A stretch of DNA of 64,000 bases, from NCBI GenBank assembly GCA_900110635.1, contig FOEK01000008.1, positions 1 to 64,000 of the forward strand. Direction: 5' to 3'. The notes below the pieces were generated by a model. That model was not told the origin of the DNA. It made no database searches and saw only the letters and a list, made by a program, of their open reading frames with translations. The position numbers and the translations under genes were made by a program. Positions 47,679 to 64,000 of the stretch are shown here, in pieces; within the stretch, counting starts at the first letter, position 1; each line of letters starts with the position of its first letter. The stretch comes from Lachnospiraceae bacterium NE2001. Its GTDB lineage: Bacteria > Bacillota > Clostridia > Lachnospirales > Lachnospiraceae.

Positions 47679-47918
47679 TTATATCTCTACAGCATATTTC
47701 TTCAGAATCTCAATCCCCTTCTCATAGGAACTAAAATCTATGATATCATCTGTATCCATCATGATATCGAAAGCATCCTCAAGGCATGCTATAAGACCCA
47801 TATGACCAACAGAATCCCATTCAGGAATCCCCTGATACTCAAGTCCTTCCTTTACGATATCTGCGTCTATTTCAAGACCTTCTACAAATGCATTAATATA
47901 TTTTTCTAGATTTGTCAT
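47679..47918 (-). CDS. Acyl carrier protein, second copy
   Basis: A 79-residue carrier protein with the phosphopantetheine serine S36 in PEWDSVGHM and a DDIIDF segment. It is distinct from the ACP at 23639-23890. TGAGGAATAGTT precedes the ATG. It lies between an HpcH-type aldolase and the sialyltransferase and is the nearest carrier to the split LuxE/LuxC, so it may hold the acyl group that those enzymes process. The 85-base gap upstream contains an imperfect stem-loop (GTATC/GATAC) of unclear role. Confidence 0.87.
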   Translation of the reverse strand: MTNLEKYINAFVEGLEIDADIVKEGLEYQGIPEWDSVGHMGLIACLEDAFDIMMDTDDIIDFSSYEKGIEILKKYAVEI

Positions 47919-48003: not shown

Positions 48004-48798
48004 TTATAATGTAATATCTGAACCAGCAATCTCAAGTCTCTCAGCCATCATCTTAAGACGGGCCTGATCTTCCTTTGCCATTCTGTCATAATATTCACAT
48101 TTATTCTTCAGATACAGTGTCTCGAACTCCATAGCCTTAAGGATTCCATCCTTCAGCTTCTCTTCGTTATCTGAACCATGGAATACAACCTTACGGGTTT
48201 CGAATCTATCATTTGTTGGATACATATTCTTGATGAAAGGAATCGCATCAAATGATATACCACCACCGAAGTTTACCATGTAACCAGCTTCTTTTGCTCT
48301 CTTAGCTATGTCCTGAGTAACGCCGAACATCTGGTCACTATTTATCTCTGCTCTTGTAAGTCCCATTGATGCTGAAAGATCAACACGACCTATAGATACT
48401 GTAGAGAGGAAGTCCTTTCCCTCTTCAAATATATCGTCAAGATTCTCATGACATGTCTTGGTCTCAGCATTTATGATCCACTCAATATCTTTCCAATTAT
48501 CGCCGTAGACCTTCTTAGCAGCATTCTTGAACTTACTCATAGCAAATGGTGACTCAATCATTGGAGCCATAATTCCTGAAGCTCCAAGGAGCTTACATTG
48601 ATCTATATCACGAACAGCCTCGCAGCCACCTATCTTTATATATAGCTTCATATCTGCTCTGAAGATAATCTCATTTAACATTACAAGTTCATCAGTACGA
48701 CTTCCTTCAGCCTCGAACTCAGCTTTGATTGCTATAACATCATGTTCATCCTTAAGATATCTAAGGATATCAAGCATTCTCTTTTCTGTATTATTCAT
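48004..48798 (-). CDS. HpcH/HpaI aldolase / citrate-lyase-beta family protein
   Basis: A 264-residue TIM-barrel protein with AIKAEFEAEGSRTDELV, the DIDQCKLLGASGIMAPMIESPFA metal-binding core (two acidic ligands), INAETKTC and GRVDLSASMG. Relatives cleave or form beta-hydroxy acids from pyruvate or acetyl units and an aldehyde. Beside an aldehyde-forming LuxE/LuxC pair, an aldol reaction with the aldehyde is conceivable, but this is inference. A GAGAGGAACGTT site precedes the ATG. Base composition shifts toward higher GC from here. Confidence 0.8.
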   Translation of the reverse strand: MNNTEKRMLDILRYLKDEHDVIAIKAEFEAEGSRTDELVMLNEIIFRADMKLYIKIGGCEAVRDIDQCKLLGASGIMAPMIESPFAMSKFKNAAKKVYGDNWKDIEWIINAETKTCHENLDDIFEEGKDFLSTVSIGRVDLSASMGLTRAEINSDQMFGVTQDIAKRAKEAGYMVNFGGGISFDAIPFIKNMYPTNDRFETRKVVFHGSDNEEKLKDGILKAMEFETLYLKNKCEYYDRMAKEDQARLKMMAERLEIAGSDITL

Positions 48799-48822: not shown

Positions 48823-49545
48823 TTATTTTTCTATATATCTCGTAAATACATGTTTTACCCCTACAGGTAAATATCCATTAATTATTAGATTTCTAAACTG
48901 CCTAATGTTGTTAGATGATACTGATGTTCTAATTCTTTTTCCACCTAATCCTCTAACATATTCCATCTCTTTAAGAACAGTACCAAGGCCCGTTTTATTA
49001 TACTTTTCGTATCCTCCGCCAAGGATAGAATTGTAAAGCTTATCATCAACCGACTTTATTATAAAAAAACCAGCTGACTCGCCTTTATATTTTTCTACAA
49101 CAGGAATTGCACCTTCAGAAACAAGGTCCTTTATCCAATTTATATATCTCTTCGCTGCAATTTCTTTAGAAAAGTGTTTATCCATCGATATTCTATCCGT
49201 ATAGAACATACCTCTTCCAATTTCCTCGTACAATTCATTTAAATCATTATCATCCATCCTTCTGCATATTAAAGAATCATACATTCTTTGCATTACGCTA
49301 CTTCGATTAATCTCATGAAGATCATGTTCTAGTTCAATTTGATCTTCTATATATACAAACCCTTTTTCTTGAAGAAGACTTACTATCTCATTACGCAGTC
49401 CCGAAACTTTTGCGACAGCATAAATAGCTTTGCTTTCAGATATCTCTTTATCTATCAAAGACAGTTCATCCATATCATCTATAATCAATTCTTCCGATGA
49501 TACACCAAGATTTCTTTCTTCCCAATAGGTATTAATCTTCTTCAT
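48823..49545 (-). CDS. WecD-like sugar N-acetyltransferase (GNAT)
   Basis: A 240-residue protein. Its N-terminal half resembles WecD/RffC (WEERNLGVSSEELII, then AIYAVAK and LLQEKGFVYIEDQIELEH), and its C-terminal GNAT half has TGLGTVLKEMEYVRGLGGKR, TSVSSNNIRQFRNLIINGY. WecD acetylates dTDP-4-amino-4,6-dideoxygalactose, and a WecE-like aminotransferase lies in the same operon (58266-59408). The acyl group could differ from acetyl. Its ATG directly follows the TAA of the upstream glycosyltransferase. Confidence 0.75.
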   Translation of the reverse strand: MKKINTYWEERNLGVSSEELIIDDMDELSLIDKEISESKAIYAVAKVSGLRNEIVSLLQEKGFVYIEDQIELEHDLHEINRSSVMQRMYDSLICRRMDDNDLNELYEEIGRGMFYTDRISMDKHFSKEIAAKRYINWIKDLVSEGAIPVVEKYKGESAGFFIIKSVDDKLYNSILGGGYEKYNKTGLGTVLKEMEYVRGLGGKRIRTSVSSNNIRQFRNLIINGYLPVGVKHVFTRYIEK

Positions 49546-50490
49546 TTAAATATCTTCCTTATAATTTGTTATTTCCTTAATAACATATTGTGGTGAATTA
49601 TTGATACATATATAGATGCGACCAATATATTCGCCTATAAGACCTAACATAACCATAATTATTCCACCAACTATAAGTATAACCGAAATAGTTGAACTCC
49701 ATCCAGCTTCCATATTAGGCGAAATAAATAGTTTTCGAATTATTGTTATTATCGCATAAAGAAATCCCACAAATGCGAATAAAAAACCTGTGTATGAACC
49801 AATACGAAGAGGCTTTACTGAAAATGCGGTAAATCCATTCATCCACAAGGATATTAATCCCTTAAGCGAATAACCCGACTGTCCTTCTATCCTATCTCTT
49901 TGTTTTATCTCAACAAATCCCAGATTTCTTGTAGTTCTAAGGACTAATCCTGCCATATATGGATAAGCATTTTTATACTTTGTTATCTCATCTATAACAA
50001 ACTTTCTAGCAATAAAGTAGCTACTACCACTTCTCTTATCACCTTTTATATCAAACATATAGTCTGACATAGCCTTAGCAAATCTTGATCCCAATCTTCT
50101 AAAGAGTTTCTGATGAACCTCCGGATATGAAGCATAAACCAAATCATATCCCTTATTGATTTCATCAACAAGCTTGTATAAATCCTCTGCAGGAGTCTGT
50201 CCATCATCATCAAGTGAGATAACCAAGTCTCCTGTACAATGATTGTATCCTGCTAACAAAGCTGAATGTTGGCCAAAATTCTTAGCAAGATTTATTCCTA
50301 TCACTTTATTATCCTTACCTGATAACTTCTTTATAACACTCCATACATCATCAGGCGAAGAATCATTCACGAGAATAATCTCATAATCATAGCCATCTCT
50401 TAGTAAAACAGTGTTCCTGATTTCGTTAACCACTTTTTCAATTGTATTCTGTGATCTATAACAAGGTATCACAAATGAAATTTTAGTCAT
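49546..50490 (-). CDS. Membrane GT2 glycosyltransferase (ArnC/DPM1-like)
   Basis: A 314-residue enzyme: GT-A domain with VIPCYRSQNTIEKVV, VNDSSPDDVW, AKNFGQHSALLAGY, and SLDDDGQTPAED, followed by two transmembrane helices near the C-terminus (about 232-255 and 268-292). This is the architecture of transferases that load a sugar onto undecaprenyl phosphate. The probable donor is the dTDP-amino sugar made by the WecE/WecD-like enzymes. TAGGTAATGGATT precedes the ATG. Confidence 0.87.
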   Translation of the reverse strand: MTKISFVIPCYRSQNTIEKVVNEIRNTVLLRDGYDYEIILVNDSSPDDVWSVIKKLSGKDNKVIGINLAKNFGQHSALLAGYNHCTGDLVISLDDDGQTPAEDLYKLVDEINKGYDLVYASYPEVHQKLFRRLGSRFAKAMSDYMFDIKGDKRSGSSYFIARKFVIDEITKYKNAYPYMAGLVLRTTRNLGFVEIKQRDRIEGQSGYSLKGLISLWMNGFTAFSVKPLRIGSYTGFLFAFVGFLYAIITIIRKLFISPNMEAGWSSTISVILIVGGIIMVMLGLIGEYIGRIYICINNSPQYVIKEITNYKEDI

Positions 50491-50500: not shown

Positions 50501-52309
50501 CTACATTGGTTTTCCTGAACTAGTTTCTAACGGTTCTACAATCATTTCACTAAAGAATAAATCCCTATCAATATAAGGAGCCTGATCCTCTATAGGTCTA
50601 AATCCAAACTTTCTCTTACCATACATTACAAGACCATTGTGAAGATCACACTGATAAGGATCACACATCACCTCACAGATAACGGGGTTATCTGTCGAAA
50701 ATAATTCTTCTATCTTATCAGTTAAAGTATCATAATTATTTATTCTTATATATTGTATTCCAAATGCATCCGCTATTTTCTTATATTCAGGAAGTGTCAA
50801 TCCATTAGACTCATCAGAGCTTATAGTTTTTCCTCTAAAATATTGGGTTTGACCATGTCGAATACTTGAATATCCATTGTTATTTATGATAACAACTTTT
50901 ACATTAAAGTTTTCTCGTGATATCGTTTGAAGTTCTTGAATATTCATCATAATAGATCCATCACCATTGTATGAAACAACAGGTGCATTTGTCTGAACTG
51001 CAAGTCCTGCTGAAGCCGCCAGCGAATATCCCATCTCACCTTGAGCATATGATGTAATAATTCTCTGATTGCTGTGATTATGTGTGCTAGCATCAACTGT
51101 AGAACCCGTAAGTCCTGCATCACATGTATACACAGTTCCATCAGGCGCCATTTCTGATATCTTCTGATATACCAACTTCATATCCAACATGTTATCATCT
51201 GATGAGACATTATCATTTCGATACTCAAATATATCTTTCCAGTGATGGCATTTTTCAATCCACTCACTATATGTGCTTTCGTAATTTTTTTCATTAAGTT
51301 TCGATAGAACCGACGATACATCAGCAAATATATATCTATCTGCCTTTACTCCTTTTTTCGAATGTTCAACTTTATCGATATCAACAACAATCTTTTTTGC
51401 ATCTCTAGCAAACTCATCAGGATTACCCGTAGTTTCGATATATAGTCTGCTACCTAAGGAAAGCACTAAATCACTATTTTGTATTGCAAAGTTCCCATAT
51501 CTTGAAGCCCCTACATTACCGACTATCCCCATATTATTCTCATCATAATAATCCATAATATCATTGGAATATCTTGTGAATACAACTGGTACATGACTTT
51601 TTCTAGAAAACTCAATTAACTTGTCACAAGAATGAGATGTTCTAATTCCATGTCCCGCTAAAATAATTGGGCGTTTGGATTCTCTTAGCTCATTAAATAT
51701 ATATTCTATATCATCGTCTGTCGGAACTAATAATTCCTCCTCAACTTCATATCTTTCTAGCGCCTCTTCATTTATCATAGAGTTCTGAATATCCATCGGA
51801 ATATCAACCCATACAGGGCCTGGTCTTCCATGTTTTGCAAGATATATAGCTTTATCAAGATAATATCCGATTTTATCAGGAGCATCTACAGTAACTATAT
51901 ATTTTGTAATAGAGGAAGCAAGAGTCTCTATATCCGCTTCTTGCACACTCATTTGTCTTAAGGGAAGTCCTGATGCCTTTATAGTATTAGCATAATCCTG
52001 CTGACCAGATATAACTATCATTGGTATACTATCCTGCCATGCATGAAGAACACCTGTCATAGCATTTGTTCCACCACATCCTGTCGTAACCAGACAAGCC
52101 CCAAAGTTATCATTATATAAAGAATACGAAAGAGCCGCATATGCCGCAGCCTGTTCATGATGAACTGGTACTCCTCTTATTTCACCTTTTTCTTGGCTTC
52201 TTCTAATTGCATCTGTAAGATAAAAACACTGCCTTCCAACAACATAGAATAAGTCCTTTGCACCAGCATCGTATACTCTTTTAATCACATAATCCGCAAC
52301 TCTTATCAT
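50501..52309 (-). CDS. ThDP-dependent enzyme, acetolactate-synthase-like
   Basis: A 602-residue three-domain ThDP enzyme. The catalytic glutamate E52 is in VHHEQAAAYAA, the central domain has a Rossmann-like NAD/FAD-type fold, and the C-terminal ThDP motif is YNGDGSIMMNIQEL to INNNGYSSIRHGQ. Relatives decarboxylate a 2-keto acid and add the two-carbon unit to an aldehyde or ketone; YerE of Yersinia does so on a keto sugar. It is not an obvious biosynthetic IlvB, given its place in the glycan operon. Acceptor unknown. Weak site GGGGGATTAATATAAATCA upstream. Confidence 0.82.
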   Translation of the reverse strand: MIRVADYVIKRVYDAGAKDLFYVVGRQCFYLTDAIRRSQEKGEIRGVPVHHEQAAAYAALSYSLYNDNFGACLVTTGCGGTNAMTGVLHAWQDSIPMIVISGQQDYANTIKASGLPLRQMSVQEADIETLASSITKYIVTVDAPDKIGYYLDKAIYLAKHGRPGPVWVDIPMDIQNSMINEEALERYEVEEELLVPTDDDIEYIFNELRESKRPIILAGHGIRTSHSCDKLIEFSRKSHVPVVFTRYSNDIMDYYDENNMGIVGNVGASRYGNFAIQNSDLVLSLGSRLYIETTGNPDEFARDAKKIVVDIDKVEHSKKGVKADRYIFADVSSVLSKLNEKNYESTYSEWIEKCHHWKDIFEYRNDNVSSDDNMLDMKLVYQKISEMAPDGTVYTCDAGLTGSTVDASTHNHSNQRIITSYAQGEMGYSLAASAGLAVQTNAPVVSYNGDGSIMMNIQELQTISRENFNVKVVIINNNGYSSIRHGQTQYFRGKTISSDESNGLTLPEYKKIADAFGIQYIRINNYDTLTDKIEELFSTDNPVICEVMCDPYQCDLHNGLVMYGKRKFGFRPIEDQAPYIDRDLFFSEMIVEPLETSSGKPM

Positions 52310-52313: not shown

Positions 52314-53057
52314 TTATATTAATCCCCCATCAACCCTAATTATCTGTGATGTTATAAATGAAGACATTTCAGAAGCTAAAAAAGCAACAGTGTTAGCAAC
52401 CTCTTCAGGTTTAGCTTTTCTTTTCATAATACATCTATACATCACCAACTTCTCATCATCTTCTGTCATGGTATCTGCAAGCCCTGTATCTGTAAGTCCT
52501 GGCGCAACAGCATTTACTCTAATACCCATTGGGCCTAGTTCTAGAGCAAGACGCTTCATCTCTCCAATTATTGCAGACTTACTAGCTACGTACTCAACAT
52601 TCGACCATGCATCATCTATTGCAGTAGACGATATAAAGACTATGCTACCACTTTTCTTTCGAATCATATATCTAGAAATGATCTGCGTAAAAAGAAAAGA
52701 TGAGAAGAAATTAATCTGAAATATATCCCTCATAGAATCCATCGGAGTCATTGTTGACATTCTAACAGGAAGACCCAATCCTATATTATTTACTAATATA
52801 TCTATCGGTATCTTCTTAGAAATAATCTCCTTACCTGCTTTTTTAACCTCATCATCTGAGGAAAAATCAGCATATATAGGATATATATTCACATTATTTT
52901 CTTCTCTTATTCTTTCTACTTCTTTAAGAAACTCGTCTGTTTCTTTTCTAACTACCGCAAATACATCCGCTCCGTTCTTCGCGAAGTTTTCAAGTATCGC
53001 TTTACCTATACCCCTGTTGCAGCCTGTGACAACTGCAGTCTTACCTTCTAGTAACAT
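52314..53057 (-). CDS. Short-chain dehydrogenase/reductase
   Basis: A 247-residue classical SDR: TGCNRGIGKA (11-20), NNIGLG in place of NNAG, SSTAID, catalytic YVASK, and PGLTDTG. Probably NADP(H)-dependent keto-reductase. It resembles FabG-like enzymes, which would suit a substrate bound to the operon's ACP. It follows luxC, 45 bases downstream. GGAGTTTATATA precedes the ATG. Confidence 0.85.
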   Translation of the reverse strand: MLLEGKTAVVTGCNRGIGKAILENFAKNGADVFAVVRKETDEFLKEVERIREENNVNIYPIYADFSSDDEVKKAGKEIISKKIPIDILVNNIGLGLPVRMSTMTPMDSMRDIFQINFFSSFLFTQIISRYMIRKKSGSIVFISSTAIDDAWSNVEYVASKSAIIGEMKRLALELGPMGIRVNAVAPGLTDTGLADTMTEDDEKLVMYRCIMKRKAKPEEVANTVAFLASEMSSFITSQIIRVDGGLI

Positions 53058-53102: not shown

Positions 53103-54371
53103 TCATCTATTATATACATATACCACACGAGACATATTCTCTATCATTCTATATCCGTCCCAAGTGAACTCGAGTCCCATCGTATCACCTATATCAACTA
53201 CTCGGTCGATACCACGAACACCAGAACGAGCCACAAAGTCAACCACATCATTCTTATCTATTCCAAGAACTGCTATGGTCTGGCAATTTTTACCCATAAT
53301 AGGTATTATATCATCCAATGATCTTACGGTATACTCAAAGAAGTAACCGCCCCCCATCTTATAGTCCATTATATCTTCAGATATTTCATCCAGGTGAATA
53401 ACAAACATCTTGTTGCCATGCTTCTCAAGACGAACTCCATCTTTCTTCATAGAAAGCTCGGTAAACATAGATTGCTTATCTATTGCTTGGATTGGCTGCA
53501 TCTCATATCTTTCTTCAACCTCTTTAGAAAGAGTATCCCAGAAAGTTTTCTGAACTTTGAGAAGAGTTTCATCCTTTTCAGAACCCTTTGCTAGATTCTC
53601 ATCAACTAGCCACACTACTATTCTAGGCGAACTGCATGCATTCTGATCCGAATAATACGTATCCGTATAGAACTTCTTCGCTATCTCTACCGCATTATCA
53701 GCTCCCTTCTCTGGATCCGATATAAGTGCATGATACTTCTTAGCATCTATTACTGCCACAGAATGTCTATCTGCAAAGCACATTTCTATCGCTCTAGGAG
53801 GGATTGGATATCTTCTAATCTGTTCGATAGTCCTGTCTCCACCCCAGATGATACGTACATCACATATCGAAGAGAGAAATGCCGTAATCTCGTCTGAATG
53901 TTCATACCGAATTATACAGATGTATTGTTTCATCTGTGTGAACTCATCTCGACTAAGCAATCTATTAATAGCCGAACAGATTATGTCAACCTCCTCGAAC
54001 TGCTTTTCCGATACACGTATCACAGTAACATTTCCAGCAAGAAGTGATGATGTCATTGATACAGCGAAGTTAACAGGTACATTTGAAGGAGCTATATGAA
54101 ATGCAACTCCACGTCCCATTCTAAGAGTATCTTCCCTTACCGTGTCGGACTTCGTCTGCTCTAGCGAGGCCTTACGAATCCAGTACGCATAGGACATTAC
54201 GTCCATATGATTTCTGATACCTGGAATAGCCAGAAGCTCCTTCGACAGTGCTGACAGAAATCCTTCGACTAACTCAGAAAAGATAGGTAGCGAAGGCGTC
54301 TTTGGTGCATTTCGAAGAACCTCCTCATCACCGACTAGATATTTAATTTTATCCTTTATCTCACTGTTCAT
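53103..54371 (-). CDS. LuxC-type acyl-CoA/acyl-protein reductase
   Basis: A 422-residue acyl reductase, the stand-alone counterpart of the C-terminal half of the fusion at 14200-16656. Shared blocks: MGRGVAFHIAPSNVPVNFA, RIIWGGDRTIEQI, catalytic C246 in DQNACSSPRIVVW, and the tail GIDRVVDIGDTMGLEFTWDG. It should reduce an activated acyl group to an aldehyde with NADPH. It lacks the lysine/serine-rich insert seen in the fused version. The site before the ATG is weak; luxE ends 30 bases upstream. Confidence 0.88.
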   Translation of the reverse strand: MNSEIKDKIKYLVGDEEVLRNAPKTPSLPIFSELVEGFLSALSKELLAIPGIRNHMDVMSYAYWIRKASLEQTKSDTVREDTLRMGRGVAFHIAPSNVPVNFAVSMTSSLLAGNVTVIRVSEKQFEEVDIICSAINRLLSRDEFTQMKQYICIIRYEHSDEITAFLSSICDVRIIWGGDRTIEQIRRYPIPPRAIEMCFADRHSVAVIDAKKYHALISDPEKGADNAVEIAKKFYTDTYYSDQNACSSPRIVVWLVDENLAKGSEKDETLLKVQKTFWDTLSKEVEERYEMQPIQAIDKQSMFTELSMKKDGVRLEKHGNKMFVIHLDEISEDIMDYKMGGGYFFEYTVRSLDDIIPIMGKNCQTIAVLGIDKNDVVDFVARSGVRGIDRVVDIGDTMGLEFTWDGYRMIENMSRVVYVYNR

Positions 54372-54401
54372 ATATCTTTTACATTCTTTTTTATATCTAA
54401 T

Positions 54402-55535
54402 TTACAGGCTTCTTTGAAGCTTATCAGCGTAAGTATCACTACATCCTCTCAGCTCAGCGCTCTTCAGTCTTCCAAGAATCTGAATATACTTACCCTTCCT
54501 ACCGCAAGGACAATCATCCTCGCCTAAGATAATTCCTTCATCCTCTGTAAGTAGCGAATGTCCAGGATAACTATGTGGTAGAACCGACACAGTCTGAATA
54601 ATCCCCTTCTCTCCAATCTCCTTTACAGAGAAATCATTTGCGTCTCTTATAAATACATCCGAATAGTTGCTTGCATGAAGATGACCACACTCACACTCAG
54701 CATATATGCATCCAGTCTGCTCGACCATAGCATAATGATCTAGAAAATGAGTTATTCCAAGTACATCTGTCATACGGTTCTTGAACTCGTTCTGAGAGAT
54801 ACTCTCCGAAACAAGTTTCTTCCAGCCACCTCCAGTCATAAGAAATGCTTCCGACAGATCATAGCTAGATATATCAAACTCATCATCTTTACTTTCAGCA
54901 CTCTTCTTGTCTGCCTTTAAACCTTGGATTGCTTGATACAGATGCTGCCAAACTATAAAGGTAAACCCAAAGATTATAAACCTCTGCCCACTATACTTTT
55001 CAAGAAATGCCTTCACAGCATCAACATTTAGAGACATATCATCATTAAGCGCATATACTATATCTCTGGCAACTATCTGGAGTCCCATAATAGCCGCTCC
55101 ACGGGCTGTGAACTGCTGACGATTACGGACAGTTTCTTTCGAATCTATAACAAGCATAGGAAGTCTCTTCTTTCCCCAGTAATCACTAAGGATTTTCACA
55201 AGCACCTTCTGCTGTATCATAGCAGTCTCTTTATCAACGTATATCTTTGACACTCTCTGACCTGTTGTACCTGAAGATGTCATAGTCTTAAAGACTTCCT
55301 CTCTAGGAATACTGAGAAGATCAACATCTTTAAAGGTTCTCACGGGAAAAAATGGTATATCTTCTGGAGAGCTAACCTTCGACTCATCATAGCTGATAGC
55401 CCTTAGATATCTGGCATATTCAGGACATTTTTCCTGATGTAGCCTCGTAAGCTCAATCAACTCAGTTGTAAGAAGCCTCGACTTTTCTTCTTTATTCAGT
55501 TCATACGGTTCTAATTCATAAAAATCTTCTATCAT
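54402..55535 (-). CDS. LuxE-type acyl-protein synthetase
   Basis: A 377-residue adenylate-forming enzyme of the LuxE family with SSGTTG (87-92), MVEQTGCIYAECECGHLHA, YPGHSLLTEDEGIILGEDDC, and GRKGKYIQILGRLKSAELRG. It matches the N-terminal half of the fusion at 14200-16656 nearly throughout. In the luminous bacteria LuxE activates the acid and passes the acyl to LuxC. The ATG overlaps the transketolase C-half stop (ATGA), so it is translationally coupled. Confidence 0.88.
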   Translation of the reverse strand: MIEDFYELEPYELNKEEKSRLLTTELIELTRLHQEKCPEYARYLRAISYDESKVSSPEDIPFFPVRTFKDVDLLSIPREEVFKTMTSSGTTGQRVSKIYVDKETAMIQQKVLVKILSDYWGKKRLPMLVIDSKETVRNRQQFTARGAAIMGLQIVARDIVYALNDDMSLNVDAVKAFLEKYSGQRFIIFGFTFIVWQHLYQAIQGLKADKKSAESKDDEFDISSYDLSEAFLMTGGGWKKLVSESISQNEFKNRMTDVLGITHFLDHYAMVEQTGCIYAECECGHLHASNYSDVFIRDANDFSVKEIGEKGIIQTVSVLPHSYPGHSLLTEDEGIILGEDDCPCGRKGKYIQILGRLKSAELRGCSDTYADKLQRSL

Positions 55536-56551
55536 CTAATCTCTGCTTTTATTCGCTCTGCTATCTTTTCTACACTGAGTCCAGCCTCGTCCAATACAAA
55601 ATCCTGTGTTCCTGCTGGGTAAAATGAATCATTGAATCCGACGAACACCTGTCTCGGTGCCCTAACCTTTGTGGTCTTATACTCTGCAACAGTGCTACCC
55701 ATACCGCCCAGTACGTTATGCTCTTCAACAGTCACAACAAGGTCAGCCTCGTCAAATATCTTATCCAGACCTTCTTTATCCAGAGGTTTAATGGTATGCA
55801 TATTGTAGATATCAAACTGTACCCCGTCTAGTTCAGGATCCGTCTCCTGCTCTTCCTCGATATGCTTCACCGCCTCAAGTGTTCTGGAAACCATAAGTCC
55901 AGTTGCAATTACAGCCACCCTTTTATCTGGTCCCTTCGATTCATCTATTTTTACCGATTTTAAAGGGACCAGCCTACCAGGAACAAAATCATAATCTTCA
56001 CGATATACAATCGGACAATTAAGTCCGCCGCTTAGACGAATATACATCGGGCCATCCATCTTTGCCGCATACTCGATAACCTTGATAGCTTCCAAACTAT
56101 CAGCAGGCGAGAAAACCTGCATATTGGGAAGAACCCTGGTAAATGCTATATCTTCGGTAGCCCAATGAGATACTCCCGACTTAGCTGCCACAACACCTGC
56201 CGATGAACCAATAAGTTTAACGTTACACCCAAGATATGACAGATGCTGTCTCACAAACTCAAGGGACCTAACTGCTATGAATGAAGCATAGGTTGTAGCA
56301 AATACATTGTACCCGCTCATTGCAAGACCAGCCGAGATACCTATCATATTCTGCTCGGCAATACCAACATTCAGAAACTTCTCTGGGTACTTTTGAATAA
56401 ATCTGTCCATTCCTGATAATAAGGAGAGATCCGCCGTTACCAACTTCAGATTTTCTATATTTTCAGCCACATCAGGAAATGCCACAGCAAACACGCTTCC
56501 ACGCTGTCCCAGCATTGACCATTTTCTTATATTTGCAGAGGTAACATTCAT
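55532..56551 (-). CDS. Transketolase C-terminal subunit-like protein
   Basis: A 339-residue half-transketolase carrying the pyrimidine-binding and C-terminal domains: LNVGIAEQNMIGISAGLAMSGY with the catalytic glutamate, SSAGVVAAKSGVSHWATEDIA, and VEEHNVLGGMGS. It should pair with the N-half at 56548-57468 to transfer a two-carbon ketol unit. It starts in the stop of that gene (ATGA overlap) with GGAGGTGGCGGA. Split transketolases occur in many Firmicutes, and this one is in a glycan operon, not with pentose-phosphate genes. Confidence 0.87.
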   Translation of the reverse strand: MNVTSANIRKWSMLGQRGSVFAVAFPDVAENIENLKLVTADLSLLSGMDRFIQKYPEKFLNVGIAEQNMIGISAGLAMSGYNVFATTYASFIAVRSLEFVRQHLSYLGCNVKLIGSSAGVVAAKSGVSHWATEDIAFTRVLPNMQVFSPADSLEAIKVIEYAAKMDGPMYIRLSGGLNCPIVYREDYDFVPGRLVPLKSVKIDESKGPDKRVAVIATGLMVSRTLEAVKHIEEEQETDPELDGVQFDIYNMHTIKPLDKEGLDKIFDEADLVVTVEEHNVLGGMGSTVAEYKTTKVRAPRQVFVGFNDSFYPAGTQDFVLDEAGLSVEKIAERIKAEIR

Positions 56552-57468
56552 TCCGCCACCTCCTCACCCAGAATCTCAGCTCTGGCTATATTATACTCTT
56601 TTTCAGATAGTCTATGATGATGCCACTCTGGACGACCTTCCATAAATGAAACGCCCATTCCCTTTATCGTATCTACGATGATCACCTGAGGCTTATCTAT
56701 CGCATCTTCTCCAAGAATCCAAGCATCAGACTCTAAGGCAGAATCTTCGTCAGGAGCCTCTCTACGAACATAACGCTCATCAAAAGCTCTAAGGACATCT
56801 GCAACCTCTCGACCATTACATTCTGAAACAAACCATCCAAAGCTCTTCATTTTGGCCGACAAGTCTCCCAACGCCATTACATCCTCTGTATCACCATCAT
56901 AGGAGAGATGATTACGATCAATAATAGCCACAAGGTTATCCAACTTATAGTGTGCTGCAGACATAAATGCTTCCCAGATAGAGCCTTCATTTAACTCTGC
57001 ATCGCCAAGAAGCACATAGAATCTTCTATTAGTTTTCTTTTCTTTATCAGCTATCGCCATACCTATTGCAACAGGAAGGGCCATCCCCAGGCTTCCCCCA
57101 GAATACTCAAGACCTATCTCCTGTCTCATTGGGTATCCTGCCAGCCTGCCACCATTCTTCTGAAACTCCATACATTCATCGTCAGAAATAAGCCCTGCCT
57201 CAGCTAGAGCTGGGATGTGAGCTAAGACACAGTGATTCTTACTCGGTATGAATATATCACGAGTATCACTTAATAGCTTTGAATCTTCGTTGTCAAATAA
57301 CCTAAGAACCTCACCATAGAGAACAGCAAGAATCTCCATACAGGAAAAACTCCCACCTAAGTGAGAACCAGCATTTCCTGTAGAAAGCGCCATATCAAGA
57401 CCTTTGAGACGCATACGTTTCGTCATCTCGGTGAGCCTTATGATATTTTCCTCTGATCTGTTGTACAT
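56548..57468 (-). CDS. Transketolase N-terminal subunit-like protein
   Basis: A 306-residue half-transketolase with the ThDP-binding region: GNAGSHLGGSFSCMEIL, YSGGSLGMALPVAIGMA, GDAELNEGSIWEAFMSA (ThDP/Mg motif), and DTIKGMGVSFMEGRPEWHHH. Residues 225-255 are an acidic stretch longer than usual. It is coupled to the C-half by a 4-base overlap and directly follows the SDR stop. The pair may extend or branch a sugar or an aldehyde by two carbons. Confidence 0.87.
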   Translation of the reverse strand: MYNRSEENIIRLTEMTKRMRLKGLDMALSTGNAGSHLGGSFSCMEILAVLYGEVLRLFDNEDSKLLSDTRDIFIPSKNHCVLAHIPALAEAGLISDDECMEFQKNGGRLAGYPMRQEIGLEYSGGSLGMALPVAIGMAIADKEKKTNRRFYVLLGDAELNEGSIWEAFMSAAHYKLDNLVAIIDRNHLSYDGDTEDVMALGDLSAKMKSFGWFVSECNGREVADVLRAFDERYVRREAPDEDSALESDAWILGEDAIDKPQVIIVDTIKGMGVSFMEGRPEWHHHRLSEKEYNIARAEILGEEVAE

Positions 57469-58257
57469 CTATATCAACCTACCGCCATCGGCATTAATTA
57501 TGCTGCCTGTAATAAATGATGAAGAATCTGTAGCAAGGAAGTAAACAACCCCCGCTATCTCTTCAGGTGTTCCTTTACGTTTCATACTTATAGCATCAAG
57601 AATCTTCTGCTGTTCTTCGTCCGCTTTAAAGTCACCCATTTCAGTGTCGATAAGACCTGGAGCAACAGCATTTACCCTTATGTTATAAGGAGCCAGTTCC
57701 TTTGATATACATCTTGTAGCCCACATAAATGCAGCCTTACTGGATCCATAAGCAAGATAGCCTTCTCTTGCCTCTATCCCGCCAACAGAACCAATGTTAA
57801 CTATTGATCGAGACCTTGCTCTACCAGTCACTTTTTCTTCCTTATTGCTCTCTCGAATCATCAGCTTCGATATCTTTTGTATCAGCGATATCTGACCTAC
57901 GAAGTTTACTTCCATAACATCACGAAGAGTATCCATAGACGTCATCTGCATCAGTCCACCACTTGGAACCCCAGCATTATTCACCAATATATCTAAGGAT
58001 AGCTTATTACCATTCTCATCTTTTTTAGATGAAATGGTCTTCACTGCACTCTTAATTGAGTCTTCACTTCTAAGATCAAGCTCAACAGGAATAATCCCCC
58101 CCCCACTATCAGCCGTCATCTGAAGCTCATTCATTTCATCAACAAAGGAGTCATCACAATGACTTGTAGTAGCCCATACATTTATTCCATTATCTATAAA
58201 CTTTTTTACAATAGCTCGACCAATCCCACGGCGAGCCCCCGTAACTATCGCATTCAT
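57469..58257 (-). CDS. Short-chain dehydrogenase/reductase
   Basis: A 262-residue classical SDR: TGARRGIGRA (6-15), NNAGVPSGG, GSVGGIEAREGYLAYGSSKAA with catalytic Tyr and Lys, NAVAPGLIDTEMG, and the SSFITGSIINADGG tail of FabG-like enzymes. It is a paralogue of the SDR at 52314-53057, the two flanking the transketolase/LuxE/LuxC genes. The site before the ATG is poor (GGGATGTAAG). Substrate unknown. Confidence 0.85.
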   Translation of the reverse strand: MNAIVTGARRGIGRAIVKKFIDNGINVWATTSHCDDSFVDEMNELQMTADSGGGIIPVELDLRSEDSIKSAVKTISSKKDENGNKLSLDILVNNAGVPSGGLMQMTSMDTLRDVMEVNFVGQISLIQKISKLMIRESNKEEKVTGRARSRSIVNIGSVGGIEAREGYLAYGSSKAAFMWATRCISKELAPYNIRVNAVAPGLIDTEMGDFKADEEQQKILDAISMKRKGTPEEIAGVVYFLATDSSSFITGSIINADGGRLI

Positions 58258-58265: not shown

Positions 58266-59408
58266 TTACATCCCATAAAATCGCTTGATTGTGTTGATTA
58301 TGTAGTCTTGAGTATTGTCGTCAAGATCGTAGTAGAGAGGAAGACGGACCAGACGCTCACTCTCTTTAGTAGTATACTTATCTTCTCCTCTAAACTCGCC
58401 AAATCGCTTTCCAGCCGGCGACTGATGTAGAGGAATATAGTGAAATACTGCCAGGATATCGTTATCCTTCATATAGTTGATGAATCTCGTACGTTCATCG
58501 AGATTCCTTGTCTTTATATAGAAGATATGTGCATTATGCTTGCATTCTGGCGGTATAATTGGAAGCTCCAGAATCCCTCTATCAAGAAGTGGTTTTAGTT
58601 CATCGTAATATCTATTCCAGAGAGTCATACGCCTGTCATAGATTTCATCTGCTATCTCAAGTTGAGCCCATAGATAAGCTGCAAGTATATCACTGGGAAG
58701 ATAGGATGATCCCATATCCATCCAGGTATATTTGTCGATCTCACCACGATAGAATTTGCTTCGGTTGGTACCCTTCTCTCTGATTATTTCAGCGCGTTCA
58801 ATCAGAGTTTTAGAGTTATTCTCTTGATTTAGGAGGATAGCCCCTCCTTCTCCCATGGAATAATTCTTTGTCTCATGAAAACTAAAGCAACCTATATCGC
58901 CAATCGATCCAAGTGAACGTTCCTTATACTCTGACATAACCCCCTGAGCAGCATCTTCAACTACAGCAAGGTTATGACGTCTAGCTATAGAAATAATAGT
59001 ATCCATCTCACAAGAAACACCTGCATAATGCACAGGAACTATAGCTTTTGTCTTATCTGTTATAGAATCTTCAATTAATTTTTCATCCATATTCATGGTA
59101 TCTGGACGAATATCCACATAAATAATCTTTGCACCTCTTAGAACAAATGCATTCGCTGTCGAAACAAAAGTAAAGGATGGGATGATCACTTCATCCCCTG
59201 GTTGAATCCCTAGGAGAATTGCTGCCATCTCTAAACTATGTGAACAGGACGTTGTCAGCATAACCTTGGGAGAACCTGTACGCACCTCAAACCAACGATT
59301 ACATAGCTTGGTATACTTTCCATCGCCACAAATCTTCTTATTATTTACGGCATCCTGCATATATTCAAAAACCTTGGCTGTAAAAGGAGCCACATTGTAA
59401 CTAATCAT
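58266..59408 (-). CDS. wecE: WecE-like sugar-nucleotide aminotransferase
   Basis: A 380-residue PLP enzyme that matches WecE/RffA closely by eye: LCGDG-like KICGDGKYTK near the N-terminus, GDEVIIPSFTFVSTANAFVL, DIRPDTMNMDE, VPVHYAGVSCEMDTI, FHETKNYSMGEGGAI with the PLP lysine, and FHYIPLHQSPAGKRFGEFRG. WecE aminates dTDP-4-keto-6-deoxyglucose to give dTDP-4-amino-4,6-dideoxygalactose. The start is the ATG at 59408 with TTGGAG nine bases upstream; a TTG five codons earlier overlaps that site. It is the first gene of the long minus-strand operon. Confidence 0.9.
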   Translation of the reverse strand: MISYNVAPFTAKVFEYMQDAVNNKKICGDGKYTKLCNRWFEVRTGSPKVMLTTSCSHSLEMAAILLGIQPGDEVIIPSFTFVSTANAFVLRGAKIIYVDIRPDTMNMDEKLIEDSITDKTKAIVPVHYAGVSCEMDTIISIARRHNLAVVEDAAQGVMSEYKERSLGSIGDIGCFSFHETKNYSMGEGGAILLNQENNSKTLIERAEIIREKGTNRSKFYRGEIDKYTWMDMGSSYLPSDILAAYLWAQLEIADEIYDRRMTLWNRYYDELKPLLDRGILELPIIPPECKHNAHIFYIKTRNLDERTRFINYMKDNDILAVFHYIPLHQSPAGKRFGEFRGEDKYTTKESERLVRLPLYYDLDDNTQDYIINTIKRFYGM

Positions 59409-59457
59409 TATTAACAACTCCAAATAATACGAATTAACAACATACTCATACTTGGGT

Positions 59458-59496: not shown

Positions 59497-59526
59497 TTCG
59501 ACTTTTACTACCATACATGATAGAAT
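59497..59526 (+). promoter_or_regulatory. Candidate promoter of the tandem YfhO gene
   Basis: TTCGAC, an 18-base spacer, then TAGAAT, 39 bases before the ATG at 59565. It is divergent from the promoter at 59458-59466; the 156-base gap between the two genes holds nothing else recognisable. Confidence 0.4.
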
Positions 59527-59564
59527 TATGCATATATATTTATTGGCTGGAGGAATATGATCAA

Positions 59565-62500
59565 ATGAAGTTCATCAACAAAAATAAAGTATTTATTATC
59601 TCATTTATTATCCCATTTCTCACTTCTTTAATCGGTCTTTTTTTATTTGGTTTATTTCCACTAAATCATAGTTCCTCAGACATTTTTTCCACAACAGGAA
59701 ATGATATATATATAACCAACTATTACAGGCTATACGATTATATTCACGGTATATATAACTCTCACGCTATAAAGGATATCTGGGCTTTCTATATGACAGA
59801 TCCCACTAACCTGATAGTTCTTCTCTTCCCTCGTACTATGCTTATTGATTTACTTAGCATACTTTTTTCTTTTAAGCTCGGGCTTGCAGGCATGTTTTCT
59901 TCAATCTTCTTTAGCAAAAGATTTCTTAATGAACATAATAAAAACGTAAGAAACAGTGAAATGATTATAATATTTTTATCTATTGCTTACTCTCTGTCTA
60001 GCTATATGCTATCCTATGGAACAAACATATCATTCTTGTCAGTAATTGCTGTCTTTCCGATGATTATTCTTTATCTAGAAAAACTGTCCTATGATAACAA
60101 ATGGTTACCTTATTATATCACCCTAAGCATCTCATTTATTCTCAGCTTTTACGCGACAGGCATAGTATTTATTTTCACTATTCTATATTTATTTACTATC
60201 AAATATTCAACTAAAAAAGAAATATTTAAAACCATATTATATAAGCTTTTCGCTGATATCATCTCTATAGGAACAGCTTGTTTTGTTATTATCCCTGCAT
60301 TAAAAAGTACCATTTCCAGTTCATTTTTCCAAAAAGCCCCACCTTTCAATTCACAACTTCTCGGTTTTTTTGAAATGATACATCAGATGTTTTTTATGTC
60401 TAAACCTTCTGCCGTATATGAACTTAGTTATGGAATAGATATTTATATTGGAACATTATGTTTTGTACTTTTATTCATATATTTGACAGCTACAAAAATC
60501 AGTATTTTTACAAAGATAAAAAAACTAGCCATCCTCGCCATTCTATTTACGGGAACTATTATGACAGGGCCAAGTACATTATTCAATTTTTTCAGGGATT
60601 CATATAATCATTCCTGCTTTTTTGCTTTCACATTAATCTTTTATATATTGATTATTGTAAGCGACCTATTAATTGAATATGAATCAATAACCAAAATATC
60701 TGTAGTTATCGCATCTATATGTAGTTTGAGTGTAATCATTCTATCAATGATTATTTCAAAAAACTATAGTAGTTCATCCATTTTTATTTATTCTCTAGAA
60801 TTGGTGATCCTTTATGGAGTTCTGCTATTTTTAATTGTTAAAAAAATCAAAAACTATAATTATTTATTATTTATCACCATATTATTTGGAACCGTTGAAA
60901 TAATATTCTCTTTTATCTGGGGAATAAAATCTCTTGGAGATGCAAGTACCTCTTATTCTAATTCATTTACTTACATCCAGTACGAATTAGAGAGAGACAT
61001 CAAAGATGCTACTATTCGTAATTTTGATATGTACAATAACTACTTTAATCCTGTATTAAATGTTTTGAATAAGATAGATTATGTTACAATCCCAACAGAT
61101 TCAAATACTCCAGATATAAATCTTAAATTAGATGCCACTCTTGGAAATACAAATATTTATTTAAATGATTTCACTGATAACCGATATATTTTTGTAGACT
61201 CAGATATTTTAAATTGGACATATAGTAAATCAAGTGTTTATTCTTCTATGAACTATCTTGCGTCGCAAATTAGCGGACAACAAGATGAAATCTTCACATT
61301 AGTAAAAAGTACTCCAACACTGATTCCAAAATATACGTCAAATCATAATTATAAAGAAACAACCATAGAATATAATTTTGATGCAGAAGGAGATATTTAC
61401 TCTAATCAGACAATAATAGAGTATTTAGGAAAATATACAAAAGATAAGCCAATAACAAAAACTTATAAATCTTATGTTTATAAAGAACAATATAATCATC
61501 AGAAGTCCAGCTACTTTTATAAGTTTAACAAAGAGGCCTATAATCGTTTCATAGGTAATATTCCATATGTGGATTCAGATTCTTATATTAATATTGATGG
61601 ATATATAATTAATTCAATTAATGAAACACCTTTATACGATATCACTATTGATGGCAAATATACCAAACCACTCAAAATTGATGATTGTTTGTGGGTCGTA
61701 CCAATTAGTTCTGGAAATCACATTATAGAACGTAGTATTCACACATCACATTTAAACTATCTATTATTGGTTTGTATTTGTTTACTCTCAATTATACTTA
61801 CTTTATCACTTTACCTAATTAATTCAATTCCTAAAGTATTAAAGCGCATATATAATTTATTATTTAATTTTGCAAGAGAAAACTACGTATATATTACTAC
61901 TATTGCTGTTTCAACATCAATAGTGATATTGGCGTGTTATCTAAATACTTGTGCACCATTTGGAAGATTATCAGCATTAAGATCGGATGGATATGGACAA
62001 ACTTATCCCGCAATTCAATCTATGATCAATTCACTTAGCATAAAGAGTCTAATACCTTCCACAATAGGTTTTGGTTCCTTTATTTTTTCTTGTGGAGGAG
62101 ATCCAATTAGTTCAGTTATAGGAACTACTATTTCTCTTATATATGACATATTTATACGAACCAATGATGGAAAAATCTATTCAACAATAAAGGCGGCAAT
62201 ATATCTTGTCTATTCTGGGCCTGCAATTATTTTTTATCTCACCCATAAATATAGTGGACAAAGATATGATAAGAAAAATCCTTATTTAATAATTATAGCA
62301 TTACTATATACTCTATCCTCTTATTCAATTGGATACTTTATTTTTAATAATTTCTTGTATGGATTATATACACCTTTAATTATATATGCACTTGAAAAAA
62401 TGGTATACAAAAAGAAACCGCTTCCTTATATCCTGTTTCTATCATTCATAATGATACGAGGGTATTACAGTGCATTTTTACTCTGTGAGTTTGTAGGTCT

Positions 62501-64000
62501 CTATTTCTTAATCTTAGATCATAATAATATAAAAACTTTCTTTAAAAACGCTCTTCATTTTCTACTAGCAAGTATTCTTGCAGCTGGTTTAGGAGCTTTT
62601 AATCTGTTACCCTCATTTCTTTCAATGATCTATTCTCCTTATAGAGAAAACGATGCTATATCATCAAGCTCAGCAAGTAATGGAATCAATATATTTAGTT
62701 CTATTTTCAAAACTATTAATCAATATCAAGTTGGCGGAAAATCGATCTATGTTTCAGCAGATAATGGTATGGTAAACATATATGCTGGTTTACTTCCTCT
62801 TATTTTTATTGCTATTTATACATTAAATAATAATATAAAGCTCTCAATCAGGATACGTAAACTGTTACTGTGTTTCCTTCTTTTCTGGGCATTTGGAGAC
62901 TCTATTTTTAACTTTGTCTTCCACGGCTTCCATCATCAATCAAATGTACCAAATAGATTTTCTATATTCTTTATCTTTATGATTATAAACATTTTTAGTG
63001 AATGTGTATTAGATATCAAGGATATATCCCATAAAAGAATTATCTACGCCATAACAACAGTTTTTATTGCCTTAGTTGCTGTTTGGTCAGCATATCCTGA
63101 AAAAAACTATACTAGTCTAGTATTATCAATCATCTTCTTAACAGCATATATTATTAGCTTTGCTATATCATTTATCAAAAAGCTTGATAATTCTTATCTC
63201 ACTAAGCTTATAGCTTATATATCCGTAATTGAAATAATACTAAGCTCCTTTATTGGCTTTTCGGGAACACTTGGACACTCCAATGAAATACTTGAAGACA
63301 ATGTTAAATCTATCGGAAAACTATTAGACAGTATGGATAACCCTAAAAACAATGTATTTATATCCGAAAACATTACTAGTTCTGGAGATAATTTCAATAT
63401 GGGACAGATCAATGGATTAAATACAATAACCGGATTTAGTTCTGAACTAAGCTCTGAAGTCTTTGATATTGTAAGATTCTGGGGAATATATGCTTCTTCT
63501 AATTCTGTTGCATATTTATCTGGAAATCCAATTGCAGATCTTATGCTGCATGTGAAATATCAATTTGTTAATTCTAACGATTCGGAATATAGAAACTCTT
63601 CAATTTATAAACTAATAGATGAGCATAACAATATGAAGCTATATGAGAACCAATATTATCTACCTGTAGGTTTTATGGTAAAACCTGAAATGCAGGAATG
63701 GGTAGACTCCGATATTGAATCATATTATTCATTTTTAAATTATCAAAATGGTCTGTCTCAAGCAATTTGTGGAAAAGACATATATACAGAAATCAATCCT
63801 GAGGATGATGATTCAAACACTAATATAAGTACTACACTTGATGATTCGAATATCTTAAATTCAAAGAATCTAAATGTTGAAATAAACTTAAACAAGAAAT
63901 ATCAAGGAAAAATATATATCTTCTATAACTCTAGAATGAATTATGTAGGTGAAACTATGGAAAATCAAAATAATCATTTTGATATCACCCTGCATGATTT
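59565..64000 (+). CDS. Giant membrane protein with two tandem YfhO modules (3' end outside window)
   Basis: An open frame of 1478 codons without a stop to the window edge. ATG at 59565 has GGAGGA ten bases upstream. The first YfhO-like module (residues 1 to about 770) has an N-terminal helix, KDIWAFYMTDPTNLIVLLFP and FKLGLAGMFS in the membrane half, and a beta-rich extracytoplasmic part ending GNHIIERSIHTSH with a closing helix. A second module begins at about 775 (ATSIVILACYLNTCAPFG-like helix), has RSDGYGQTYP (D808, Q812), GFGSFIFSCGGDP and again an extracytoplasmic half. The DxxxQ of module 2 is changed to DxxxT at D47 in module 1, so module 1 may be inactive. Role in outer-face glycosylation is inferred. 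Confidence 0.82.
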   Translation, partial: MKFINKNKVFIISFIIPFLTSLIGLFLFGLFPLNHSSSDIFSTTGNDIYITNYYRLYDYIHGIYNSHAIKDIWAFYMTDPTNLIVLLFPRTMLIDLLSILFSFKLGLAGMFSSIFFSKRFLNEHNKNVRNSEMIIIFLSIAYSLSSYMLSYGTNISFLSVIAVFPMIILYLEKLSYDNKWLPYYITLSISFILSFYATGIVFIFTILYLFTIKYSTKKEIFKTILYKLFADIISIGTACFVIIPALKSTISSSFFQKAPPFNSQLLGFFEMIHQMFFMSKPSAVYELSYGIDIYIGTLCFVLLFIYLTATKISIFTKIKKLAILAILFTGTIMTGPSTLFNFFRDSYNHSCFFAFTLIFYILIIVSDLLIEYESITKISVVIASICSLSVIILSMIISKNYSSSSIFIYSLELVILYGVLLFLIVKKIKNYNYLLFITILFGTVEIIFSFIWGIKSLGDASTSYSNSFTYIQYELERDIKDATIRNFDMYNNYFNPVLNVLNKIDYVTIPTDSNTPDINLKLDATLGNTNIYLNDFTDNRYIFVDSDILNWTYSKSSVYSSMNYLASQISGQQDEIFTLVKSTPTLIPKYTSNHNYKETTIEYNFDAEGDIYSNQTIIEYLGKYTKDKPITKTYKSYVYKEQYNHQKSSYFYKFNKEAYNRFIGNIPYVDSDSYINIDGYIINSINETPLYDITIDGKYTKPLKIDDCLWVVPISSGNHIIERSIHTSHLNYLLLVCICLLSIILTLSLYLINSIPKVLKRIYNLLFNFARENYVYITTIAVSTSIVILACYLNTCAPFGRLSALRSDGYGQTYPAIQSMINSLSIKSLIPSTIGFGSFIFSCGGDPISSVIGTTISLIYDIFIRTNDGKIYSTIKAAIYLVYSGPAIIFYLTHKYSGQRYDKKNPYLIIIALLYTLSSYSIGYFIFNNFLYGLYTPLIIYALEKMVYKKKPLPYILFLSFIMIRGYYSAFLLCEFVGLYFLILDHNNIKTFFKNALHFLLASILAAGLGAFNLLPSFLSMIYSPYRENDAISSSSASNGINIFSSIFKTINQYQVGGKSIYVSADNGMVNIYAGLLPLIFIAIYTLNNNIKLSIRIRKLLLCFLLFWAFGDSIFNFVFHGFHHQSNVPNRFSIFFIFMIINIFSECVLDIKDISHKRIIYAITTVFIALVAVWSAYPEKNYTSLVLSIIFLTAYIISFAISFIKKLDNSYLTKLIAYISVIEIILSSFIGFSGTLGHSNEILEDNVKSIGKLLDSMDNPKNNVFISENITSSGDNFNMGQINGLNTITGFSSELSSEVFDIVRFWGIYASSNSVAYLSGNPIADLMLHVKYQFVNSNDSEYRNSSIYKLIDEHNNMKLYENQYYLPVGFMVKPEMQEWVDSDIESYYSFLNYQNGLSQAICGKDIYTEINPEDDDSNTNISTTLDDSNILNSKNLNVEINLNKKYQGKIYIFYNSRMNYVGETMENQNNHFDITLHD

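Follow-up and report, generated by a model that had tools for sequence, protein, structure and literature searches.

A split transketolase coupled to LuxE and LuxC in a Lachnospiraceae glycan operon: a candidate route to unusual aminosugar acyl groups

Organization of the locus

The first 64,000 nucleotides of contig FOEK01000008.1 of Lachnospiraceae bacterium NE2001 (assembly GCA_900110635.1; hereafter the window) contain an operon in which a transketolase encoded by two genes is coupled to genes of the LuxE and LuxC families. The operon runs from 59411 to 47679 on the minus strand in the order WecE-SDR1-TktN-TktC-LuxE-LuxC-SDR2-ThDP-GT2-GNAT-HpcH-ACP (SDR, short-chain dehydrogenase; ThDP, thiamine diphosphate enzyme; GT2, glycosyltransferase; ACP, acyl carrier protein), with intergenic gaps of -4 to 85 bases. 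TktN, the ThDP-binding half of this module transketolase (56548-57468; PF00456, Transketolase_N, 89.2 bits), follows SDR1 with a gap of 0 and shares a four-base ATGA overlap with TktC, the Pyr and C-terminal half (55532-56551; PF02779, Transket_pyr, 88 bits; PF02780, Transketolase_C, 63.5 bits). TktC overlaps in turn, again by ATGA, the gene encoding the acyl-protein synthetase LuxE-A (54402-55535; PF04443, 173 bits). The acyl-thioester reductase LuxC-A (53103-54371; PF05893, 94 bits) lies downstream without overlap, after a gap of 30. The Pfam scores of all these domains exceed the cut-offs. An earlier note made from the sequence alone had described an unfused LuxE/LuxC pair tightly coupled to a split transketolase, and the coordinates that it gave were confirmed. 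It had also called this pair the second one. The other is a fused LuxE-LuxC of 818 amino acids, LuxEC-B, encoded on the minus strand at 14200-16656 (PF04443, 191.6 bits; PF05893, 86.2 bits).

Conservation of the gene order

The order SDR-TktN-TktC-LuxE-LuxC is conserved. Two kinds of LuxE/LuxC pair were distinguished, pair A (in the window at 53103-55535) and pair B, and an SDR gene immediately precedes TktN in the listed pair-A loci. When 295 genomes of the order were searched with LuxC, 31 gave any match; 16 besides the own genome had E below 1e-60, and all of these were fetched. A split or fused transketolase lies near LuxE/LuxC in 10 of the 16 neighbourhoods, and in three of the six without one LuxE/LuxC sits no more than 2 kb from a contig end. 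Searching 391 genomes of the class with a LuxE profile gave 15 at E 1e-60 or better. Twelve were fetched, leaving out the own genome, one examined before (G093) and one at a contig end (G410). Transketolase is present in five of these 12 neighbourhoods, and five of the seven lacking it belong to a distinct, more distant subgroup. Setting those five aside, transketolase is found in 15 of 23 order and class neighbourhoods, a result with a binomial probability below 1e-13 if the rate expected by chance is put, by our own estimate, at 3-5%. Since the same gene order is found in many genomes, the arrangement is more than chance. Recurrence likewise rules out a module private to this genome, a possibility raised in the earlier note. 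Within the genus, LuxE at 86% identity or more was found in 5 of 61 genomes (own included), a patchy distribution of the kind usual for surface-glycan loci.

A scan of named genomes extended the distribution. The best 78 of at least 553 confirmed loci, a selection skewed in favour of the LuxE of the window, include loci of Spirochaetota, Pseudomonadota, Synergistota, Elusimicrobiota and Bacteroidota. TktN and TktC lie beside LuxE/LuxC in some loci of Spirochaetota (L113), Pseudomonadota (L078, L079, L083) and Synergistota (L126), and not in the single Elusimicrobiota and single Bacteroidota loci among these 78. In ten Rhizobium plasmids, LuxE and TktC are both present about 5-6 kb apart; the one plasmid locus read contains TktN, TktC, ACP, ligase, LuxE, LuxC and SDR. 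In this locus, from Rhizobium beringeri pRlX3 (L163, 4325-15373), the transketolase-LuxE-LuxC core has a GMC oxidoreductase and FabZ as neighbours, aminosugar genes are absent from the stretch seen, and the product may be a small molecule. Two like copies of the module are found in inverted orientation on one 17-kb contig (L036, 1819-15358; same contig as L064), perhaps as an assembly artefact.

The position directly upstream of LuxE-A is not always held by a transketolase gene. Outside the window, 25 non-duplicate loci were compared, and the position is occupied by TktC in 17, NeuB in five and a GNAT in two, and is a contig end in one. A LuxE gene tree was built by a quick method that leaves 43 of 108 inner branches open. 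LuxE-A forms a clade of 26 rows in this tree (support 99), and the subgroup with NeuB in the slot is a single clade within it (support 100). Transketolase and NeuB both form carbon-carbon bonds by adding carbon to aldehydes. The exchange is informative because this property is shared by the two enzymes and aldehydes are what LuxC makes. Three slot NeuBs score 299-318 bits, under the NeuB cut-off of 399.65; scores this low leave room for other acceptors, which these enzymes may use. The window's own NeuB, at 447.7 bits, is above the cut-off and belongs to a nonulosonic (legionaminic-type) acid set at 30695-39846 comprising a cytidylyltransferase, a nucleotidyltransferase, DegT, a dehydratase, NeuB and a NeuC-like epimerase. 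Among loci of at least 14 kb, the mean of transketolase/NeuB genes is 1.33 in those with two LuxE (n=15) versus 0.58 in those with one (n=57), with no correction for relatedness.

The active site of the module transketolase

The earlier note had allowed that the module transketolase might be the only one in the cell. This is ruled out by a second split transketolase on contig 42 of the same genome, beside a transaldolase, a fucose-isomerase-domain protein and an FGGY kinase. Thirty control rows were fetched for comparison and six were left out: L136, L145 and L162, which were mis-extracted, and three that are not of housekeeping type, namely L146, a module transketolase, and L144 and L147, which lack H461 and D469. 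The housekeeping set consists of 10 split rows and the own-genome copy, giving 11 rows of which 10 are distinct (L133 repeats the own copy). A second control set consists of 14 rows of DXS length, not each checked as DXS. Residue columns were placed by motif on the housekeeping copy. The residues are named by E. coli numbering, in which H461, D469 and R520 bind the phosphate and the 2-hydroxyl of the acceptor.

The catalytic histidines of a pentose-phosphate transketolase are retained in the module enzymes. The TktN equivalents of H26, H66 and H261 are present in every one of 61 rows, the control among them, and the TktC equivalent of H473 is present in 57 of 59 rows. The acceptor-site residues are lost: across the 59 module TktC rows (55 distinct), H461 and D469 are each found in none and R520 in one (Arg in L112). 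Housekeeping transketolases keep all three in 11 of 11 rows. TktC of the window has no equivalents of the three and retains H473 and also R358, which is kept in 43 module rows. The loss of H461, D469 and R520 predicts that the acceptor of the module transketolase is an aldehyde without a phosphate or a 2-hydroxyl group.

A further substitution is found at the position of H100, which is Tyr in the window's TktN and in 16 of the 17 non-duplicate TktN preceding pair-A LuxE (L083 keeps His). His is present there in 31 of 56 distinct module TktN. In E. coli transketolase, the D469T variant is described as taking propanal as acceptor, and variant 6M, which carries H100L and D469T, as using pyruvate as donor (PMC10787763, excerpts). 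Natural substitutions in the module thus fall at positions that were engineered for the E. coli enzyme to accept aliphatic aldehydes and pyruvate. Pair-A transketolases possibly carry out acetyl rather than ketol transfer, judging from these residues.

LuxE/LuxC pairs, acid ligase and carrier protein

The cysteine C365 of LuxE-A, in the motif RGCSDT, is invariant across 16 aligned sequences, as is C246 of LuxC-A, in QNACSSP, across 15. Family-profile structure matches were to chain E (LuxE-A) and chain A (LuxC-A) of PDB 7xc6. The NCBIfam equivalogs of the long-chain LuxCDE system were far from being reached (73.5 of 550 bits for LuxE and 43.9 of 750 for LuxC).

Among 85 pair-B LuxE rows, a ligase is found within six genes in 76, an ACP in 64 and a thioesterase in 21 (PF00975 in one tested). 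In the window, an AMP-binding acid ligase (16708-18195, minus strand; PF00501, 129.7 bits) and the fused LuxEC-B sit 36 kb from the transketolase; ACP, ligase and the LuxE/LuxC genes together fall at 14-18 kb and 47-55 kb. A LuxEC-B homologue is contiguous with the pathway genes in L185 and L186. The top six PDB matches of the ligase are to oxalate-CoA ligases, an oxalyl-CoA synthetase, a feruloyl-CoA synthetase, a fatty-acyl-CoA synthase and a 4-hydroxybutyrate-CoA ligase. The last gene of the operon encodes a protein of 79 amino acids with the motif WDSVGHM (47679-47918, minus strand). It had no Pfam match at 0.001 and is assigned as ACP-like through membership of a carrier-protein-like family present in 76 of 95 compared loci.

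Other observations concern the acyl genes. A lactate/malate-dehydrogenase-family gene (one tested) is found in nine loci (L077, L080, L087, L092, L093, L097, L098, L099 and L103) and immediately follows LuxC in L077, L087, L097 and L103, a hint of a 2-hydroxy acid substrate. A second acyl-decoration set lies in the window at 19915-27154, with an FkbH-like gene, a carrier protein, two MBOAT acyltransferases and an AlgX-like protein. In a phage collection, one distant LuxE relative (24% identity) was found at 11830-12783 of MT835565.1, an unannotated phage record from human faeces.

Aminosugar, acyltransfer and carboligase genes

The operon begins with WecE, a dTDP-4-amino-4,6-dideoxygalactose transaminase (58266-59411, minus strand as for the whole operon; PDB 4piw/4zah, 7.9e-169). 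It surpasses the NCBIfam equivalogs NF008687 (624.7 bits, cut-off 375) and TIGR02379 (624 bits, cut-off 434.85) and on these scores is a true transaminase of 4-amino-4,6-dideoxygalactose (Fuc4N). The N-acyltransferase of the GNAT family (48823-49545) is not recognized by Pfam and reaches 24 of 219 bits of the WecD equivalog. Its AlphaFold2 model (pLDDT 91) has as its best PDB fold WecD (2fs5; E 4e-14, TM 0.73/0.78), a TDP-fucosamine acetyltransferase. The distance of its sequence from the WecD model leaves room for a different acyl donor.

The ThDP enzyme (50501-52309) is acetolactate-synthase-like. Its closest PDB match, 8rph (3.9e-87), is named JanthE (PMC12188165), and it is taken here as a YerE/JanthE-like carboligase; it has a GDG motif where JanthE has CDG. 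The HpcH/HpaI-type aldolase-like gene (48004-48798; PF03328, HpcH_HpaI, 34.9 bits, cut-off 25) gave weak PDB matches alone, the best at E 0.039. In L185 and L186 this slot is occupied by an HMGL-like gene, and the nearest NCBIfam model of that family (a relative tested) is 4-hydroxy-2-oxovalerate aldolase (91 of 229 bits). In these two loci the set forms one uninterrupted run that includes small membrane proteins of EamA type, ACP, ligase and a fused LuxE-LuxC; WecE lies beyond the L186 stretch and is present in L057, apparently on the same contig. The same-genus genome G299 has HpcH at 97% and ACP at 96% identity with the order kept and an FkbM-like gene added.

The two SDRs (SDR1, 57469-58257; SDR2, 52314-53057) match adh_short_C2 at 162.8 and 176.3 bits. 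The ACP-like protein, HpcH aldolase, two SDRs and ThDP enzyme that the earlier note had placed in the operon are thus all present. GT2 (49546-50490; PF00535, 101.9 bits) has a hydrophobic C-terminus, read from the sequence, and is a probable undecaprenyl-phosphate sugar transferase resembling ArnC/GtrB. The divergent neighbour of the operon is a YfhO membrane-protein gene on the plus strand (59517-63998) that continues past the window end to encode 2460 amino acids (PF09586, 526.8 bits on L052:518-7900).

Elsewhere in the window, an alpha-2,8-polysialyltransferase-like gene (46603-47676; PF07388, 37.5 bits) immediately follows the ACP gene. A Fic protein and a DDE transposase lie within the glycan region (27288-30507), and a DXP synthase (4814-6751; 386.8 bits) is found close to the window start, beyond the glycan genes.

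A proposed pathway and its alternatives

The gene set, its conservation, the residue losses, the identity of WecE and the WecD fold of the GNAT are established here. From these we infer a pathway, with its substrates, donor, order of steps and product. The best reading is a pathway akin to the tetronate route of Vibrio cholerae O1 with a two-carbon transfer added. That the operon makes lipid-carrier-linked Fuc4N with an unusual N-acyl chain, extended by the split transketolase, is a proposal to which we give roughly even confidence. WecE would form dTDP-Fuc4N, and the WecD-like GNAT would acylate its amino group. A carboxylic acid would be converted to an aldehyde by the ligase and ACP, by LuxE (through an acyl-AMP and then an acyl-cysteine donor) and by the reductase LuxC. 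The split transketolase would condense this aldehyde with a two-carbon unit, and the SDRs would adjust the resulting ketone. Having lost its phosphate- and 2-hydroxyl-binding residues, the transketolase would take a plain or acidic semialdehyde, and the Tyr in place of H100 may permit pyruvate as donor of an acetyl instead of a ketol unit. The YerE-like enzyme and the aldolase may contribute a branch. Delivery of the sugar would fall to GT2, an export step and the YfhO protein.

The earlier note had read these genes as a carbon-chain assembly line. The conserved coupling of LuxE/LuxC to transketolase and the exchange of transketolase for NeuB add to that idea, and the YerE/JanthE-type and aldolase-like genes fit it. 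The note had left the product as either a branched or chain-extended sugar or an acyl decoration; since a WecE transaminase and a WecD-fold N-acyltransferase are both encoded, an acyl decoration is by inference favoured over a chain-extended sugar.

Several observations weigh against the proposed pathway. No transketolase or NeuB was found within six genes in 25 of the 57 single-pair loci. All 14 DXS-length controls keep D469 but are without H461 and R520, which leaves the loss of D469 as the one feature that sets the module apart from both control sets. Nor is the Fuc4N context universal: counting duplicates, a WecE/DegT gene lies within six genes of LuxE in 6 of 29 pair-A and 17 of 85 pair-B rows, and WecE is absent from the shown stretch of the one Rhizobium plasmid locus read. 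A fatty-acyl-CoA synthase is among the PDB matches of the ligase. The presence of two LuxE/LuxC pairs is not accounted for, as a two-carbon transfer yields no new carboxylate. If transketolase had replaced the V. cholerae iron alcohol dehydrogenase, loci without transketolase would be expected to have that enzyme: it was found near LuxE in one of 19 transketolase-less genomes (contigs were assigned to loci by number, with one of the 19 unclear), and BLAST with the L048 protein and two iron alcohol dehydrogenases taken from that genome survey as its three queries found it in 4 of 95 loci (L041 and L048-L050), all transketolase-less. The idea that transketolase stands in for this dehydrogenase has little support from these counts and would hold at best in part.

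The strongest rival has as its product not an acyl group but a branched or higher-carbon sugar; we consider it rather unlikely. LuxE/LuxC, transketolase and aldolase could make a hydroxylated alpha-keto acid that the YerE-like enzyme joins to a keto sugar, as in erwiniose or caryophyllose. Alternatively, the split transketolase could place a hydroxyacetyl group on a keto sugar, as proposed for miharamycin. The YerE-like enzyme lies within the operon, split-gene transketolases have been proposed to branch keto sugars (PMC12247030, excerpts), JanthE accepts 4-hydroxy-2-oxovalerate (PMC12188165), and the gene in the HpcH slot of relatives is nearest to the 4-hydroxy-2-oxovalerate aldolase model. 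However, the 4-keto group would be consumed by WecE, the operon encodes a WecD-fold N-acyltransferase, and a YerE-like gene is near LuxE in just 7 of 29 pair-A and 10 of 85 pair-B rows.

A long fatty aldehyde formed by LuxE/LuxC and converted by transketolase to a 1,3-dihydroxy-2-ketone lipid or liposugar is improbable. It is consistent with LuxE/LuxC family membership, with the loss of polar residues from the transketolase pocket and with the FabA-like or KAS III genes found close to LuxE in 3 of 29 and 13 of 85 rows, and liposugars have been proposed by the flagellin-island and Dickeya zeae authors (PMC7874193, PMC4875605, PMC7575072, excerpts). Against it stand the low LuxE and LuxC equivalog scores and the ligase matches, which are remote and mainly to CoA ligases of small or aromatic acids, with the one fatty-acyl-CoA synthase. 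In addition, a characterized transketolase of Thermotoga maritima takes C3-C8 aldehydes and not nonanal (PMC8317047, excerpts). Very improbable is a split transketolase that merely feeds sugar phosphates to the glycan pathway beside LuxE by coincidence: split transketolases are common in related bacteria and the Dickeya zeae authors label TktA and TktB sugar biosynthetic proteins (PMC7575072, excerpts), but H461 and D469 are lost in 59 of 59 module rows, a separate transketolase adjoins the transaldolase, and the adjacency to LuxE is conserved.

The acylated Fuc4N pathway may also be one case of a wider scheme, which we offer only tentatively. LuxE/LuxC pairs and interchangeable carbon-carbon bond-forming enzymes would build chains in a modular, polyketide-synthase-like way without a polyketide synthase, giving combinatorial acyl groups for surface aminosugars. 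Each pair would reduce an acid to the aldehyde that the bond-forming enzyme then lengthens. A transketolase with altered donor and acceptor sites would add two carbons and a diverged NeuB three, and the YerE-like enzyme and pyruvate aldolase would serve as branching units. The system itself is real and recurs, and we regard it as a variant of the synthesis of glycan acyl groups. If the proposed pathway is true, transketolase gains a role outside central metabolism, and new surface sugars are predicted in gut Clostridia, spirochaetes, proteobacteria and rhizobia.

Comparison with known systems

The earlier note knew of no described pathway with this set of genes. Part of it has in fact been described: LuxE/LuxC, ACP and ligase for V. 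cholerae O1 tetronate and in flagellin glycosylation islands, and a similar set has been listed in flagellar loci of Dickeya zeae with a function proposed only, according to excerpts of these sources. The V. cholerae O1 route to tetronate (2,4-dihydroxybutanoyl) uses an AMP ligase (RfbL), a carrier (RfbK) and an acyl protein synthase/acyl-CoA reductase (RfbN) of RfbK/L/M/N, and places the acyl group on a 4-amino-4,6-dideoxyhexose. ACP, AMP ligase and LuxE-LuxC likewise occur together in a glycan locus here, contiguously in L185 and L186 and in two separate stretches within the window. Compared by description, the V. cholerae cluster differs in its sugar, perosamine rather than Fuc4N, and in having an iron alcohol dehydrogenase, with transketolase not mentioned in the excerpts; no iron-containing alcohol dehydrogenase is among the scanned operon genes.

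The flagellin glycosylation islands of Aeromonas group II and Enterobacteriaceae also have ACP, FabG, AMP ligase, LuxE and LuxC among glycan genes, whereas neither main text contains the word 'transketolase' (PMC7874193, PMC4875605, excerpts). The miharamycin/amipurimycin pathways have a split-gene transketolase in biosynthesis with a proposed non-phosphate acceptor; there, however, the acceptor is a sugar ketone, and section 2.3 makes no mention of LuxE/LuxC (PMC12247030, excerpts). Bioluminescence LuxCDE shares the LuxE and LuxC families and the conserved cysteines, and differs in its equivalog models, which the window's proteins fall far short of, and in the glycan context found here. The tie to the YerE/JanthE enzymes, which form tertiary alcohols from ketone acceptors, is that JanthE is the closest PDB match to the ThDP enzyme of the operon. 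In the open-access literature searched, there was no mention of a transketolase that extends a LuxC aldehyde, of its altered pocket, of its exchange with NeuB, or of the two-pair version with WecE, WecD-fold GNAT and YerE-like enzyme.

The closest likeness is to Dickeya zeae, in which LuxC, LuxE, an acyl ligase, two transketolase genes, two FabG-type SDRs, ACP and an aminosugar aminotransferase occur together. The aminotransferase is VioA, a neighbour that agrees with an acylated 4-amino-6-deoxysugar. The genes listed are luxC, luxE, fadD, tktA, tktB, two fabG, acpP and vioA (PMC4522980, PMC6206727, PMC7575072, excerpts), and the set adjoins vioA and fliC (PMC7575072, excerpts). It differs from the window in having one LuxE/LuxC and vioA instead of wecE, with no YerE-like enzyme or aldolase listed in those excerpts. 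By gene kind alone, sequences apart, the same set is found in pair-B loci with SDR, TktN, TktC, ACP, ligase, LuxE and LuxC; all of its gene kinds are also in the window, the ligase and fused pair at their distance from the transketolase. In excerpts of their papers, the authors of 2015 thought a tie of these genes to the building of flagella unlikely and compared their products with proteins of Pantoea ananatis, and those of 2020 proposed flagellin glycan modification with a liposugar (PMC7575072). A like core gene set is thus already in print as a gene list. If the pathway proposed here is true, it would explain the joint function of LuxE/LuxC and transketolase genes in non-luminous glycan clusters, including the 'fatty acid and sugar genes' of Dickeya zeae.

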